Positions 5,211 through 26,863 of a stretch of DNA of 40,538 bases are shown here, in pieces. The notes under the pieces are model-generated. The model searched no databases and had not been told where the DNA came from. It was given only the letters and a program-made list of their open reading frames with translations. The DNA is taken from assembly GCA_040881685.1 (NCBI GenBank), contig JBBECS010000035.1, positions 1-40,538 of the forward strand, given 5' to 3'. The stretch comes from Acidimicrobiia bacterium. Lineage in GTDB: Bacteria > Actinomycetota > Acidimicrobiia > IMCC26256 > PALSA-555. Positions within the stretch are counted from its first letter, which is position 1. Each line of letters starts with the position of its first letter. The position numbers were made by a program, and so were the translations under genes.

Positions 5211-6830
5211 TCAGCCGGAGGCTTGACCCAACAACAACCCGTAGACGAGCGAGTCGTACAAGGCCTGCCACGACGCTTCGATGATGTTCTCGCTCACCCC
5301 GATCGTGGACCAGGTGCGATCGCCGTTCGTGGAGTCGATGAGCACTCGCGTGACCGCACCCGTGCCCTTCTGCGTGTCGAGGACCCGCACCTTGTAGTCG
5401 GTGAGGTGGACCCGGTCGAGCGCTGGGTACCGACCACCGAGCGCGCGGCGCAGCGCGGTGTCGAGCGCGTTCACCGGGCCGTTGCCTTCGGCCGTCGCGA
5501 CCGTGCGCTCACCCCCCACATGAACCTTGATCGTCGCTTCAGTGCTCACACCCCCCGCGGTCGCGTCACCCTCCCCGGTCTGGAGGTCGTCGGTGATCAC
5601 GCGGAAGGACTCGACCTCGAACCACGGCTGCTCCCATCCGGTGGCGCGCCGCATGAGCAGCTCGAGCGACGCGTCGGCCACCTCGAAGTGGTAACCCTCG
5701 TGCTCCATCCGCTTGAGGGTGTCGACGACGTCGTTGACCTGCGGGCCGTCGAGCTCGAGCCCGAGCTCCTCGGCCTTGAGCAAGATCGTCGACTTGCCGG
5801 CTAGCTCCGACACCACGAACCGCGTGCCGTTGCCCACCGTGTCGGGAGGAACGTGCTCGTAGGCATCCGGTCGCTTCTTGATCGCGCTGGTGTGCAGGCC
5901 CGCCTTGTGCGCGAACGCGGACTCGCCCACGTACGCCGCTTGCGGGTTCAATGCCATGTTCACGAGCTCAGCGACGTGGTGCGCCACCGGCGTGAGCCGC
6001 TCGAGCCGGTCAGCGGGGATGGTCTCGATCCCCATCTTCAGCGTGAGGTTCGGGATGATCGTCGTGAGGTTGCAGTTCCCGGTCCGCTCGCCGTAGCCGT
6101 TGATCGTGCCCTGCACCTGCATCGCGCCGCCGCGTACCCCGGCGAGCGCGTTCGCCACACCGGTGCCGGCATCGTCGTGGAGGTGCACGGCGATCCCGAC
6201 GTCGCCGCCGAAATAGCTCACGACCGCTCGCACCGTGGCTTCCACCTCGTCGGGCAGCGTGCCGCCATTCGTGTCACACAGCACGAGCCGCGTCGCGCCT
6301 CGCTGCACCGCGGCTTCGAGCACGCGGAGGCTGAACTCGGGCGTACGCCGATAGCCGTCGAAGAAGTGCTCGGCGTCGAAGAACACGTCGAGACCGTTGC
6401 CACAGAGGAACTCGATTGAGTCGGCCACCATCGCGACCCCTTCGTCGAGCGTGGTGCCGAGCGCCTCGGTGACGTGGTAGTCCCAGCACTTTCCGACGAT
6501 GCACACGGTCGACGTGCCCGCCTCCACGAGGTTGCGCAACGTGTCGTCGGAGTCGACCTTGCCCTTCGGACGGCGCGTCGAGCCAAAGGCGACGAGCGTG
6601 CTGGTGTCGAGCACGAGCTCGGTGGCGGCCCGCCGGAACATCTCGTCGTCCTTGGGGTTCGAGCCCGGCCAGCCCGCCTCGATGAAGTGCACGCCGAGCC
6701 AGTCGAGCTGCTCGGCGATGCGCAGCTTGTCGTCGACCGTCAGCGAGATCCCCTCGAGCTGAGACCCATCGCGAAGCGTCGTGTCGTAGATCTCGACGCT
6801 TGCTGGTGCCGCAGACTCACTCACGGACAT
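5211..6830 (-). CDS. cimA: (R)-citramalate synthase
   Basis: This 539-aa enzyme condenses acetyl-CoA and pyruvate to (R)-citramalate, the first step of threonine-independent isoleucine synthesis. It is a DRE-TIM metallolyase: DTTLRDGSQLEGISL near the N-terminus, the FIEAGWPGSNPKD motif, LCDTNGGTLPDEV, HLHDDAGTGVANALAG with the metal-binding HxH, and a C-terminal LeuA-type regulatory domain. Length and FIEAGWPGSNPKD fit the CimA branch rather than LeuA, which is present separately. ATG 6830 overlaps the end of ilvE by 14 bp, so translation is probably coupled. It is the third gene of leuB-ilvE-cimA, behind a Val/Ile attenuator. Confidence 0.92.
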   Translation of the reverse strand: MSVSESAAPASVEIYDTTLRDGSQLEGISLTVDDKLRIAEQLDWLGVHFIEAGWPGSNPKDDEMFRRAATELVLDTSTLVAFGSTRRPKGKVDSDDTLRNLVEAGTSTVCIVGKCWDYHVTEALGTTLDEGVAMVADSIEFLCGNGLDVFFDAEHFFDGYRRTPEFSLRVLEAAVQRGATRLVLCDTNGGTLPDEVEATVRAVVSYFGGDVGIAVHLHDDAGTGVANALAGVRGGAMQVQGTINGYGERTGNCNLTTIIPNLTLKMGIETIPADRLERLTPVAHHVAELVNMALNPQAAYVGESAFAHKAGLHTSAIKKRPDAYEHVPPDTVGNGTRFVVSELAGKSTILLKAEELGLELDGPQVNDVVDTLKRMEHEGYHFEVADASLELLMRRATGWEQPWFEVESFRVITDDLQTGEGDATAGGVSTEATIKVHVGGERTVATAEGNGPVNALDTALRRALGGRYPALDRVHLTDYKVRVLDTQKGTGAVTRVLIDSTNGDRTWSTIGVSENIIEASWQALYDSLVYGLLLGQASG

Positions 6831-7737
6831 ATTCCAACCAGTCCGCGTACTTCTCCACCTCGCCGTGGACGGTCGCGAAGTAGGTCTCTTGGACCTTGCG
6901 CGTGAGCTCACCGGGGTCGCCGATCTCGCGGTCATCGACCTCCCGGATGGGCACAACCTCCGCCGCGGTGCCGGTGAGGAAGGCCTCGTCGGCCAGGTAC
7001 AGGTCGGTCCGCAGCAACGCCTCTTCGCGCACCTCGTAGCCGAGGTCGCGAGCGATCGTCATCACGGAATCACGCGTGATGCCCTCGAGCGCGCCCGACG
7101 ACAGTGGCGGTGTGCGGAGCACACCATCCGTGACCACGAACAGGTTCTCGCCGGTGGCCTCCGACACCTCACCGTTCATGTTCAGGAGCACCGCCTCGTC
7201 GTACCCACCCTTGATCGCCTCGACCTTGGCCAGGCTCGAGTTCACATAGATCCCCGTGCCCTTCGCCGCGACCGGGTTGATGTTCGGGTCCATGCGGCGC
7301 CACGTGGAGATCTTCATGCGCACGCCGCGCTTGATCCCTTCGTCGCCGAGGTACGTCCCCCAAGGCCACACCGCGATCGAGACGTTCACCTTGCACGGGA
7401 GCGGGTTCAATCCCATCTCCCCGTACCCGAGGTACGCGAGGGGGCGGATGTAGCAGCCCTCGACCTCGTTGACCCGTACCGTCTCCTTCGTCGCCTCGAC
7501 CAGCTCCTCGACCGAGAACGGGAGCTCCATCAGCAGGAGCGACGCCGAATCCTGCAGGCGCTGGATGTGGTCGGTGAGACGGAAGACGGCCGGACCGCGC
7601 GACGTCGGATAGGCACGGATGCCCTCGAACACGCCCGACCCGTAGTGGAGCGTGTGGGTGAGGACGTGGACGGTCGCGTCGTCCCAATCGACGAGCGTCC
7701 CGTCCATCCAGATCTTCTGGGTCTTCTCGATCGGCAT
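6817..7737 (-). CDS. ilvE: Branched-chain amino-acid aminotransferase
   Basis: This 306-aa, fold-type IV PLP enzyme interconverts Leu, Ile and Val with their 2-oxo acids using glutamate/2-oxoglutarate. Visible features are LHYGSGVFEGIRAY (30-43), the PLP lysine K159 in VAAKGTG (the same position as in E. coli IlvE), EATGENLFVV, and the phosphate-binding LTGTAAEVVPI. The length is typical. It starts 33 nt after the leuB stop and overlaps cimA at its end, so the three genes form one operon. It performs the last step for the products of both the cimA and leu pathways. Confidence 0.96.
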   Translation of the reverse strand: MPIEKTQKIWMDGTLVDWDDATVHVLTHTLHYGSGVFEGIRAYPTSRGPAVFRLTDHIQRLQDSASLLLMELPFSVEELVEATKETVRVNEVEGCYIRPLAYLGYGEMGLNPLPCKVNVSIAVWPWGTYLGDEGIKRGVRMKISTWRRMDPNINPVAAKGTGIYVNSSLAKVEAIKGGYDEAVLLNMNGEVSEATGENLFVVTDGVLRTPPLSSGALEGITRDSVMTIARDLGYEVREEALLRTDLYLADEAFLTGTAAEVVPIREVDDREIGDPGELTRKVQETYFATVHGEVEKYADWLEYVRE

Positions 7738-7770: not shown

Positions 7771-8766
7771 CTACTGCACTCGCTCGGCGATCGTGTCGCC
7801 GATCTCGCTCGTCGTTCCGGTCACGTCATCGGACTTCTCGACGGCCTCACGCACCCGCACAGCGGCGTCGCTCTCGCCGAGGAACTCCAACATCATCGCC
7901 GCCGAGACGATCGCCGCGCGCGGATCGGCGCGCCCGGTGCCCACGATGTCAGGCGCGGACCCGTGCACCGGCTCGAACACCGAAGGCCCGGTGCGCGCAG
8001 GGTTGAGGTTGGCCGACGCGGCGCGACCGATCCCACCCGAGACGGCGCCACCGAGATCGGTGAGGATGTCGCCGAACAAGTTGTCGGTGACGATCACGTC
8101 GTAACGCGCCGGATCCTGCACCAGGTAGATGCACGCCGCATCGACGTGGTGGTAGGCCGTCCCGACGTCGGCGAACTCCGTGGCGACTTCGTCGAACGCG
8201 CGCTGCCACAGGTCGCCGGCGAACTGGAGCACGTTGGTCTTGTGCACGAGGGTCACGTGCCGGCGGCCCCGAGAGCTGGCGAGGTCGAACGCGAACCGCA
8301 CACAGCGCTCGACACCGAAGCGAGTGTTGACCGAGCCCTGCGTGGCGATCTCGCTCGGCGTGCCCTTCCGCAGGAAGCCACCTTCACCTGCGTACACACC
8401 CTCGGTGTTCTCGCGGACCACAACCATGTCCACACCGTCGTTGAAAGGACTCGGCCCGGCGACGAAAGGACGCAAGTTCACGAAGAGATCGAGCTCGAAG
8501 CGCAACCGCAGCAGCAGACCCCGCTCGAGCACGCCGGGCGGCACCTCGGGAGTCCCGACCGCGCCGAGCATCACCGCGTCGAGGCCACGGATCGCGGCGA
8601 GGTCGTCGTCGGGCAGCACCTCGCCGTCGCGCAGGTAGCGGGCACCACCGAGGTCGAAGGCCACCGGGGTGTAGGCCACCCCGGCCGCGTCGACCACCTT
8701 CATGGCCTCGACCACGACCTCGGGGCCGATCCCGTCCCCCCCGATGATCCCGATCCTGTGGGTCAC
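7771..8766 (-). CDS. leuB: 3-isopropylmalate dehydrogenase
   Basis: This 331-aa NAD-dependent enzyme oxidatively decarboxylates 3-isopropylmalate, and in the citramalate route 3-methylmalate. It has [13 protein letters not shown] at the N-terminus, [15 protein letters not shown], the catalytic region [33 protein letters not shown] and the adenine-binding [14 protein letters not shown] chose GTG 8766 because AGGAG lies 4-5 nt upstream and the next start upstream falls inside the attenuator terminator. It is the first structural gene of leuB-ilvE-cimA. Confidence 0.95.
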
Positions 8767-8810
8767 TTCGCTCCTGTGCGTGCTCGCCGTGTGGTGCTGC
8801 GGTCCTGACA

Positions 8811-8838
8811 ACGAAAAACCGCCCACCGAGGTGGACGG
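8811..8838 (-). terminator. Intrinsic terminator of the leuB attenuator
   Basis: In minus-strand RNA, CCGUCCAC pairs with GUGGGCGG around CUCG (8838-8819), giving 8 bp with one G-U, followed directly by UUUUU (8818-8814). It lies between the leader peptide stop and leuB. An upstream segment CCGGCCACC (8862-8854) can pair with the terminator's 3' arm in 8 of 9 positions, a plausible antiterminator. Confidence 0.85.
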
Positions 8839-8868
8839 TCGGGGGCGAACGCCGGTGGCCGGCGTCCG

Positions 8869-8901
8869 CTACGAGATGACGATGACGGGCTGATGCGCCA
8901 T
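8869..8901 (-). CDS. Val/Ile leader peptide of the leuB-ilvE-cimA attenuator
   Basis: ATG 8901 opens a 10-residue peptide, MAHQPVIVIS, ending at TAG. The four consecutive codons GTC ATC GTC ATC would stall a ribosome when Val-tRNA or Ile-tRNA is scarce. A 7-bp hairpin (8849-8865) follows the stop, then the terminator at 8811-8838. The peptide starts about where transcription should start (promoter 8911-8939), so its mRNA is probably leaderless. The function is transcription attenuation of the downstream operon. Confidence 0.85.
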   Translation of the reverse strand: MAHQPVIVIS

Positions 8902-8910
8902 GGGTCGTCC

Positions 8911-8939
8911 ATTCTCCCAGTCGCCTGAGAGTGGGTCAA
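8911..8939 (-). promoter_or_regulatory. Promoter of leuB leader
   Basis: On the minus strand TTGACC (8939-8934) is followed by a 17-nt spacer and GAGAAT (8916-8911). The expected start site is at about 8904-8901, at the leader peptide's ATG. Confidence 0.6.
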
Positions 8940-9016
8940 CCGGCTTCCGTGCCGATCCGTCGAGCGCGCTCGCACGTAGTACCAAGGGCCCCGTCCTCAC
9001 CAGGAGGTCAGCGGTC

Positions 9017-9706
9017 GTGAGGAAGCTCGGGTTGCTCGCGGGTGGGATCGTCATGACCTTGGTCGCCGGCTTCGGCTTCTACTGGCTCGTGCTGCGGGAC
9101 GACCCAGCTCCTCCCGCCAAGATCAAGCAGACCAAGGTGGCGACGGGCGCCGACGCGCCCGAAGGGCTGCTCGACGGCACGTACGCGCTGCGCTCGTCCG
9201 ACGGCGACTCGTTCGTCGGCTACCGCGTCGAGGAGCAGTTCGTGGCGGGCGCCATCAACGGCACCGCCACCGGTCGCACTCCGGAGATCGAGGGCAGCCT
9301 CTCGATCTCGGGCACCACCGTCGACGGCGTCACGATCACCGCCAACGTGCAGGCGCTGGTGTCCGACGAGTCGAGGCGCGACAACCGGATCCGCACCTCG
9401 GGACTGGAGACCGACACGTTCCCCAACGCGGAGTTCGTGCTCGACGAGCCCATCGAGCTCGGGACGCTCCCCGCCGCCGGCGAGACCGTCGAGGTCACCG
9501 CCGTCGGTCACCTGACGCTGCACGGGGTGACGCGCGACGTGGAGATCCCGCTCGAGGCTCGCTGGGATGGAACGCGCGTACAGGTGGTCGGCCGACTGCC
9601 GATCGTGTTCTCCGACTACGACATCGACGCCCCCTCGGTCCCCGGGTTCGTGACCGTGGACGACCGGGGCGAGATGGAGCTCCAGCTCTTCTTCGAGCCG
9701 GAGTGA
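9017..9706 (+). CDS. YceI-like domain membrane-anchored protein
   Basis: This 229-aa protein has an N-terminal membrane anchor (LGLLAGGIVMTLVAGFGFYWLV, about residues 4-25), a short linker and a YceI-type lipocalin-like domain: DGTYALRSSDGDSFVGYRVEE, FVAGAINGTATGRTPEIEG, SDESRRDNRIRTSGLET, FPNAEFVLDEPIEL and VGHLTLHGVTRDVEIPLEA. YceI-family proteins bind polyisoprenoid or other lipids in a beta-barrel. The ligand here is unknown. The GTG 9017 start has AGGAGG 9 nt upstream. It is transcribed divergently from the leuB leader. Confidence 0.85.
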   Translation: MRKLGLLAGGIVMTLVAGFGFYWLVLRDDPAPPAKIKQTKVATGADAPEGLLDGTYALRSSDGDSFVGYRVEEQFVAGAINGTATGRTPEIEGSLSISGTTVDGVTITANVQALVSDESRRDNRIRTSGLETDTFPNAEFVLDEPIELGTLPAAGETVEVTAVGHLTLHGVTRDVEIPLEARWDGTRVQVVGRLPIVFSDYDIDAPSVPGFVTVDDRGEMELQLFFEPE

Positions 9707-25172: not shown

Positions 25173-26716
25173 GGCCCCACGGTGCGCTCTCGCGGCTCGG
25201 CACGATCACGCAGGCGCACAAGCTTGTTCACGGCGTTGAGGTAGGCGCGCGCTGACGCTTCTACGACGTCGGTCGACACACCGCGGCCCGACACCTTGGC
25301 ACCGTCGGCGTCGAGCATGACGATGACATCGCCGAGGGCGTCACCGCCTTTGGTGACCGATGACACCTTGAAGTCCAGCAGCGTGCCCGACACACCGGTG
25401 GCCTTGGCGATCGCCGCGACCGCCGCGTCGATCATGCCGTTGCCCTCGGCCGTGGCTTCCACGCGGGCGTCGCCTTCGTTCAGGACCACGGTCGCGGTGG
25501 GCGTGCTCGTGGTGCCGCCGTGCACATCGAAGCTCACGATCGAGTACCGATGCACGATGCCGGCGCCGAGCTCTTCGGCGATGATCGCCTCGAGGTCCGC
25601 CTCGGTGATCTCGACCTTGCGGTCGGCCAGCTCTTTGAAGCGGGTGAACGCCTGGTTGAGCGCGTCGCCTTGGACGTGCAGCCCCATCTTCTCCAGCGTG
25701 TCGGCAAACGCATGGCGACCGGAGTGCTTGCCCAGCACAATCTGCGCGGCGTCCTGGCCGACCGTGGTCGCGTCGATGATCTCGTACGTCTCGCGGTCCT
25801 CGAGGACCCCGTGCTGATGGATGCCGGCTTCGTGCGCGAACGCGTTCCGACCTACGACCGCCTTGTTGTACTGCACGGGATAGCCGGTGAGGCGCGAGAC
25901 GAGACGCGAAGTCCGCGCGAGCTCTTCGGTGTGCACGGAGGTCTCGACCAGACCGAAGTAGTCGCTGCGCGTCTTGATCGCCATCACGATCTCCTCGAGC
26001 GCAGCGTTGCCGGCTCGCTCACCGAGCCCGTTGACGGCACATTCCACCTGGCGGGCACCAGCGGCCACGCCGGCCAGCGAGTTGGCCACGGCCAGCCCGA
26101 GGTCGTTGTGACAGTGCGTGGACACGACGTACTCGCCCTGCACGGTCGCGATGATGTGCGCGATCAGCTTTCCAAACTCCTCCGGCACGCCGTAGCCGAC
26201 CGTGTCGGGGATGTTCAGCGTGGTCGCGCCGTTGTCGACGGCGAGCTGGAGCACCTCGCACATGAAGTCGACTTCCGAGCGGCTGCCGTCCTCAGGCGAG
26301 AACTCGATGTCGGTCGTGTACACGGCGGCACGGGCAACCCCCGCGACGACCTCGGCCTTCACCTGGTCCTCGGTCATCCGGAGCTTCTTCTTCATGTGGA
26401 TCGGCGAGGTGGCGATGAACACGTGCAGGCGGGGCTTCTCGGCGTGCTGCACCGCCTCCCAGGCCCGGTCGATGTCCTTGAACCCGGTGCGGGAGAGCCC
26501 GGCGATGACGGGCCCTCGCACCGTCTTGGCGATGGCCTCCACGGCCTCGAAATCGCCCTGGCTCGCGATCGGGAACCCGGCCTCGATGATGTCCACGCCC
26601 AGCCGGGCGAGCTGCTCGGCGATCTCCAGCTTCTCGCCCACGTCGAGGGAGATGCCCGGCGACTGCTCGCCGTCACGCAGCGTCGTGTCGAAGATCCGGA
26701 CCTGGTTGCGGGTCAT
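25169..26716 (-). CDS. leuA: 2-isopropylmalate synthase
   Basis: This 515-aa enzyme condenses acetyl-CoA and 2-oxoisovalerate, the committed step of leucine synthesis. It is a DRE-TIM metallolyase with DTTLRDGEQSPGISL (near residue 10), STHCHNDLGLAVANSLAGV with the metal-binding HxH, NAFAHEAGIHQHGVL and a C-terminal LeuA allosteric domain for leucine feedback (YSIVSFDVHGGTTSTPTATV onward). I chose ATG 26716, with AGGGAAG 10 nt upstream, over GTG 26737. It is preceded by a leucine leader peptide and terminator. It is followed by an overlapping methyltransferase. Confidence 0.96.
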   Translation of the reverse strand: MTRNQVRIFDTTLRDGEQSPGISLDVGEKLEIAEQLARLGVDIIEAGFPIASQGDFEAVEAIAKTVRGPVIAGLSRTGFKDIDRAWEAVQHAEKPRLHVFIATSPIHMKKKLRMTEDQVKAEVVAGVARAAVYTTDIEFSPEDGSRSEVDFMCEVLQLAVDNGATTLNIPDTVGYGVPEEFGKLIAHIIATVQGEYVVSTHCHNDLGLAVANSLAGVAAGARQVECAVNGLGERAGNAALEEIVMAIKTRSDYFGLVETSVHTEELARTSRLVSRLTGYPVQYNKAVVGRNAFAHEAGIHQHGVLEDRETYEIIDATTVGQDAAQIVLGKHSGRHAFADTLEKMGLHVQGDALNQAFTRFKELADRKVEITEADLEAIIAEELGAGIVHRYSIVSFDVHGGTTSTPTATVVLNEGDARVEATAEGNGMIDAAVAAIAKATGVSGTLLDFKVSSVTKGGDALGDVIVMLDADGAKVSGRGVSTDVVEASARAYLNAVNKLVRLRDRAEPRERTVGP

Positions 26717-26750: not shown

Positions 26751-26782
26751 AAAAACCTCCCCGGCCCGAGGGCACGAGGAGG
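26751..26782 (-). terminator. Intrinsic terminator of the leuA attenuator
   Basis: In minus-strand RNA, CCUCCUCG pairs with CGGGGAGG (26782-26756, 8 bp with one G-U), with a further small inner stem, followed by UUUUU (26755-26751). It lies between the leader stop and leuA. A weaker hairpin GCGGG/CCCGC (26810-26782) sits between the leader and the terminator and overlaps its base, a possible alternative structure. Confidence 0.85.
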
Positions 26783-26812
26783 CGGGACGCGAGCACCGGA
26801 AGGCGCCCGCGT

Positions 26813-26863
26813 CTACGTAAGGAGCAGGCTCGTCGAGATGGCGGCGCGCAGTTCCTTCGTCAT
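26813..26863 (-). CDS. Leucine leader peptide of the leuA attenuator
   Basis: ATG 26863 encodes MTKELRAAISTSLLLT, 16 residues with CTG CTC CTT consecutive leucine codons three codons before the stop. Ribosome stalling under leucine limitation would change folding before the terminator at 26751-26782. No Shine-Dalgarno is seen. A TTGCCT-N17-CATCAT promoter (26901-26873) would start transcription close to the ATG, so translation is probably leaderless. Confidence 0.85.
   Translation of the reverse strand: MTKELRAAISTSLLLT

Follow-up and report, generated by a model that had tools for sequence, protein, structure and literature searches.

A probable leader-peptide attenuator before leuB-ilvE-cimA in Acidimicrobiia, with relatives at leuA, ilvB and cimA

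The leuB-ilvE-cimA genes of an Acidimicrobiia bacterium (GenBank contig JBBECS010000035.1; the window, i.e., the whole stretch of DNA analysed, comprises 40,538 nucleotides) are preceded by a short open reading frame and two hairpins, which raises the question of whether this leader senses the operon's own amino acids and, if so, how the signal reaches RNA polymerase. We regard it as very probable that the leader controls leuB-ilvE-cimA by ribosome-mediated (leader-peptide) transcription attenuation, with charged tRNA-Ile and tRNA-Val as the sensed signal. The original prediction placed a promoter, the peptide MAHQPVIVIS, a hairpin after the stop codon and a terminator in this order before leuB, and all of them were located in the window; the terminator stem, given there as 8 bp, is actually 10 bp including two G.U pairs. 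The features are as follows.

8934 to 8939, minus strand: −35 element TTGACC, from a promoter scan
8911 to 8916, minus strand: −10 element GAGAAT, separated from the −35 element by a 17-nt spacer
8869 to 8901, minus strand: leader open reading frame, ten codons (MAHQPVIVIS) plus TAG, conserved in 50 same-order genomes
8845 to 8869, minus strand: hairpin H1, 11 bp, loop CCA, its 5′ end being the third base of the stop codon
8814 to 8840, minus strand: intrinsic terminator T, stem 8840-8817, U5 run 8818-8814
7771 to 8766, minus strand: leuB, 3-isopropylmalate dehydrogenase, first regulated gene (NF002898.0, 484 bits against a cut-off of 393)
6817 to 7737, minus strand: ilvE, branched-chain aminotransferase (NF005146.0 and TIGR01122.1, above cut-off)
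5211 to 6956, minus strand: cimA, citramalate synthase (TIGR00977.1, 676 bits against a cut-off of 450)
26751 to 26863, minus strand: sister leader of leuA in the same window, found by reading upstream of leuA

The identities of leuB, ilvE and cimA are those of NCBIfam equivalogs scoring over curated cut-offs; the coordinates of cimA are based on the longest-ORF start, and the real start probably lies further inside the frame. Control codons for Ile fit the citramalate route to Ile, in which CimA and LeuB act. This need not be the sole route, however, since a threonine deaminase-like gene scores above cut-off elsewhere in the genome.

TTGACC/GAGAAT is the sole sigma-70-like match across positions 8000-9600 (0.0 expected in the 1.6 kb scanned). 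The leader ATG (8901-8899) follows the −10 hexamer by just 9 nt, and the leader transcript is therefore probably near-leaderless, a point absent from the original prediction. The control codons GTC ATC GTC ATC (8886-8875) are followed by one free codon, TCG, and the stop codon TAG (8871-8869), so that 5 nt (the X codon plus UA) separate the last control codon from H1, a register that is nearly constant at 5-6 nt across leaders. H1 in turn is followed by T after a gap of 0-6 nt in all 144 parsed leaders; the stem of T at leuB closes a 4-nt loop and is followed by UUUUU. The 94-nt leader folds with −44.6 kcal/mol (z −4.4), and none of 200 shuffles folds equally well. Rfam returned no cis-regulatory family (ilvB-OMG, T-box, riboswitches) at the leader, either at the gathering score or at E≤5, and the matches above gathering score in the window are two tRNAs only.

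In the trp, ilv and leu attenuators of E. coli, stalling at control codons sets the balance of termination and read-through, and similar control-codon stalling is proposed for the leuB leader. The near-leaderless transcript would be translated immediately. With ample Ile and Val, the ribosome would reach the stop codon, RNA polymerase would make T, and most transcripts would end at the U run; when Ile or Val runs short, the ribosome would stall on the control codons and termination would decrease. What is seen directly is the conservation of the reading frame, control codons, H1 and T, and a codon identity that follows the downstream gene; the transcription start, the stalling, in vivo termination and the direction of the response are inferred. 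Two hallmarks of an attenuator are found at the locus: a run of codons for the operon's own amino acids (the Val/Ile run, present in 50 same-order genomes, its translation being predicted), and an intrinsic terminator between the reading frame and the first gene (a stem with compensatory changes and a U run).

LeuB was searched in 61 genomes, and 53 genomes of the same order, including the one analysed, have an ortholog and a readable upstream region. The leader is present in 50 of the 53, a frequency that speaks against chance, and these retain the Val/Ile codons that had been proposed as the sensor. The leader is absent upstream of leuB in the remaining three (G021, G032 and G038), which belong to one AT-rich genus and have a different gene context. 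Loss of the Val/Ile codons or of the terminator in relatives had been named as grounds for giving up the attenuator; both were kept in the 50. The 50 leader peptides mostly comprise 10-17 residues, with a few longer and a maximum of 35, and share the C-terminal layout of Val/Ile run, one free codon and stop. All 50 have a −10-like hexamer 6-10 nt ahead of the start codon (9 nt in 29 of them); these distances come from a best-match search and the informative part is the narrow peak at 8-9 nt alone. The commonest best −35 match is TTGACA/TTGACC.

The covariation across related genomes that the original prediction called for is borne out in both stems. In the aligned leuB leaders, 98% of the cells in H1 and T are paired, compared with 32-51% in slid controls, and 9 of 19 modelled pairs have changed on both sides, a level that none of 500 shuffles reaches. 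The changed pairs fall in H1 (6 of 10 modelled pairs; 97.9% of cells paired) as well as in T (3 of 9; 98.0%), and leaders with a TGA stop (L008, L011) can have A-U instead of G-C at the stop-codon base pair of H1. In a covariation analysis of all columns (G-test with APC) the top structural signals lie in H1 and T, and there are also scattered column pairs that are compatible with shared ancestry. Some sequence is kept beyond what pairing would need: the terminator CCGUCC/GGGCGG (8840-8817 in the window, and relatives) is conserved to this degree including its U.G wobble, which is kept in 43 of 49 leuB leaders, the over-conserved segments being CCGUCC and GGCGUUCG; the 3′ arm of H1 varies less than the 5′ arm.

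When named genomes were scanned for a DNA pattern, the element turned up in assemblies of Acidimicrobiia and of unclassified Actinomycetota, including IMCC26256 (CP011489); the matches that the scan gave in Streptomyces, Saccharothrix and Magnetospirillum were regarded as fortuitous. Three assemblies titled Bifidobacterium breve (L145, L156, L157) carry an Acidimicrobiia-type leader and are probably mislabelled metagenome-assembled genomes.

A covariance model built from the leuB leader was used to search the same genome and others. The common design, i.e., control codons, one free codon, stop, H1, 0-6 nt and T, recurs at leuA, ilvB and cimA, and this strengthens the original argument that the sensed amino acids fit the operon: Leu at leuA, Val/Leu at ilvB and Ile at cimA. 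The genome analysed has three such leaders with differing codons, VIVI at leuB, LLVVV at ilvB and LLL at leuA. The ilvB leader (L084, G000:C53:122076-122159, plus strand), a covariance-model match, encodes MHIADLLVVVM upstream of ilvB-ilvN-ilvC. The leuA leader comprises the reading frame MTKELRAAISTSLLLT (26863-26813 including the stop), H1 (26813-26786), a terminator (26783-26755) and a U run to 26751, all on the minus strand, with the terminator 35 nt upstream of the leuA ATG at 26716. An LLL- or LLLL-type leader stands at all 25 readable leuA upstream regions, this one included (the pattern detected 24, and L236 was recognised by eye); no leuA upstream region long enough to read was without the pattern. 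Strong model matches precede leuB-ilvE, cimA alone, ilvB or leuA elsewhere in the class (other families and orders) and in a handful of genomes from further classes; matches outside the order lie upstream of branched-chain genes, save a few weak cases. Weak matches in other classes (E above about 1e-5, e.g., G390, G402 and G068) are not leader-like and were set aside.

The codons follow the gene. In all, 145 leaders were counted; part of the detection used V/I/L-biased patterns or a codon-containing model, and six class-level leuB leaders whose control runs are weak (e.g., VASIP, EVTIS) were excluded. Among the 145, the last control codon (codon −2) is Ile in 70 of 75 leuB and 10 of 10 cimA leaders, Val in 20 of 27 ilvB leaders and Leu in 33 of 33 leuA leaders. 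The last four control codons are 51% Ile, 39% Val and about 0% Leu at leuB, 95% Ile at cimA, and 63% Val with 26% Leu at ilvB, and all 33 leuA leaders have Leu at positions −4 to −2. The leaders of solo cimA genes (L085, L110, L114, L116-L120, L164 and L172) have a near-pure Ile run (AIIII, FIII). Genome ancestry does not explain this match of codon and gene, because one genome holds several types with different codons.

Classical attenuation requires an antiterminator helix. The E. coli trp, ilv and leu attenuators have defined 2:3 antiterminators, whereas none was found in the leuB-type leaders: RNAalifold with H1 and T forbidden gave no further consensus helix, and a comparison of the four leader types (leuB, cimA, ilvB and leuA) showed no other helix that is conserved in all of them, the candidates being without covariation and in most types no stronger than shuffles. 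Judging by the general size of ribosome footprints, a ribosome stalled on the control codons would leave H1 folded, and one at the stop codon would cover the 5′ arm of H1 and open it. H1 would thus be intact during the stall and opened at the stop codon, which makes H1 itself a candidate antiterminator. On the simplest reading, folded H1 would be the mark of the starved, ON state, and its position appears to match that of the hairpin put forward as antiterminator in C. glutamicum ilvBNC. Whatever the switch, it has to account for the near-constant register, the placement of H1 at the stop codon, the short gap between H1 and T, the C-rich H1 loops, and the over-conserved CCGUCC and GGCGUUCG of the leuB leaders.

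Two variants of the attenuation model differ from this reading in the switching step. It is possible, though on balance rather unlikely, that the switch is a classical trp-like one, with H1 as protector (1:2) and its 3′ arm pairing as antiterminator with the 5′ arm of T when the ribosome holds H1 open (GGCG-U-UCG with CGA-C-CGUC, 8853-8846 with 8841-8834). In roughly half of the relatives the freed segment is predicted to fold into this helix, 92% of the helix's cells pair compared with 20-58% when slid, and both of its segments are unusually conserved, as seen in the steadier 3′ arm of H1 and the retained wobble of T. However, its covariation is not above that of shuffles, its energy is about −6 kcal/mol whereas that of T is −16, and the signal is absent from the ilvB, cimA and leuA leaders; moreover, it needs an open H1, and a ribosome on the control codons halts about 5 nt before H1.

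The other variant, which we consider doubtful, pairs the C-rich top of H1 (8862-8854) with the G-rich 3′ arm of T, a pairing of the kind suggested for the Corynebacterium ilvB-II motif, where the P1 loop and the 3′ arm of the terminator are the proposed antiterminator (PMC10272879). The original prediction named CCGGCCACC as a candidate for this antiterminator, and 8 of its 9 bases can indeed pair with GGTGGGCGG in the window. In all four leader types, and in contrast to the T loops, C is abundant (55-61%) and G scarce (5-11%) in the H1 loops, which fits such pairing. The pairing itself is not conserved, however: the loop sequence varies, the energies in leuB and cimA leaders equal those of shuffled or swapped loops (median p 0.295), and the leuA leaders alone clearly exceed shuffles.

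If H1 acts with no competing helix at all, folded H1 might make it harder for T to enter the exit channel of RNA polymerase, and a ribosome arriving at the stop codon would open H1 and so allow termination; as a specific mechanism we judge this improbable. That the reading frame and hairpins act otherwise, on leuB translation, mRNA decay or through a protein bound to the invariant terminator sequence, is very improbable. The conservation of CCGUCC/GGGCGG and the suggestion of protein binding for the LEU elements of other Actinobacteria (PMC1262725) fit a bound protein, but the U run of T ends some 45-50 nt ahead of leuB, which has its own Shine-Dalgarno sequence (AGGAG, 8775-8771, upstream of the GTG start at 8766), and the codon identity that follows the operon is explained only by translation of the reading frame.

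The leuB leader is very probably a new branch of a known mechanism, ribosome-mediated transcription attenuation, and the design is branch-wide. The closest comparison is the Corynebacterium ilvBNC leader (ilvB-II motif; PMC11857589, PMC10272879), which likewise has a near-leaderless short reading frame rich in branched-chain codons before a branched-chain operon, and a single hairpin followed by a U-tailed terminator; the C. glutamicum antiterminator hairpin also abuts its terminator, as H1 does. The Corynebacterium case differs in that the antiterminator put forward there overlaps the terminator or competes with it, whereas H1 is clear of T and no conserved competing helix was found, and in that the reading frame covers most of the first hairpin, whereas H1 begins at the stop codon; furthermore, it precedes ilvB, and the main case here precedes leuB-ilvE-cimA. 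Leader peptides have been predicted for ilvB of Corynebacterium, Mycobacterium and Streptomyces (Seliverstov 2005, PMC1262725) and listed for S. lividans (PMC8079986). The portions of these two sources available describe similar short reading frames with Ile/Val/Leu codons and terminators, and include no leuB or cimA leader. The LEU element as given there is a Leu leader of leuA with a pseudoknot of the Leu codons and the leuA Shine-Dalgarno sequence and no terminator (PMC1262725), whereas the leuA leaders described here have H1 and a U-tailed terminator, which sets them apart from it. The same source reports that codon changes in the ilvB leader of Streptomyces coelicolor left regulation unaffected, and a leader peptide alone is thus no proof of control. 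The open-licence literature yielded no published account of leaders at leuB or cimA, or in Acidimicrobiia, a scope that makes this weak evidence.

These data suggest that one leader design serves much of branched-chain amino acid synthesis across a large class of Actinomycetota whose members are mostly uncultured, with codons re-tuned for each operon: Ile for cimA, Ile/Val for leuB-ilvE-cimA, Val/Leu for ilvB and Leu for leuA. The leader set would amount to a natural codon-swap experiment and allow easy prediction of an operon's effector amino acid. That no competing helix was found raises a testable question on antitermination; were the helix-free reading true, one geometric design would serve the whole set of branched-chain operons by codon change alone, and the design may deserve more weight if the antitermination step turns out to be unusual.

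Two further leader-like elements were noted. One (L088, G094:C78:706-784, plus strand) has H1 and a terminator ahead of an apparent serine aminotransferase/SerA pair, its control codons not being clear. The other, in another class (L086, G115:C11:7739-7817, minus strand), has a leader-like reading frame ending in RVLLIT with H1 and a terminator, and the next frame resembles prephenate dehydratase.
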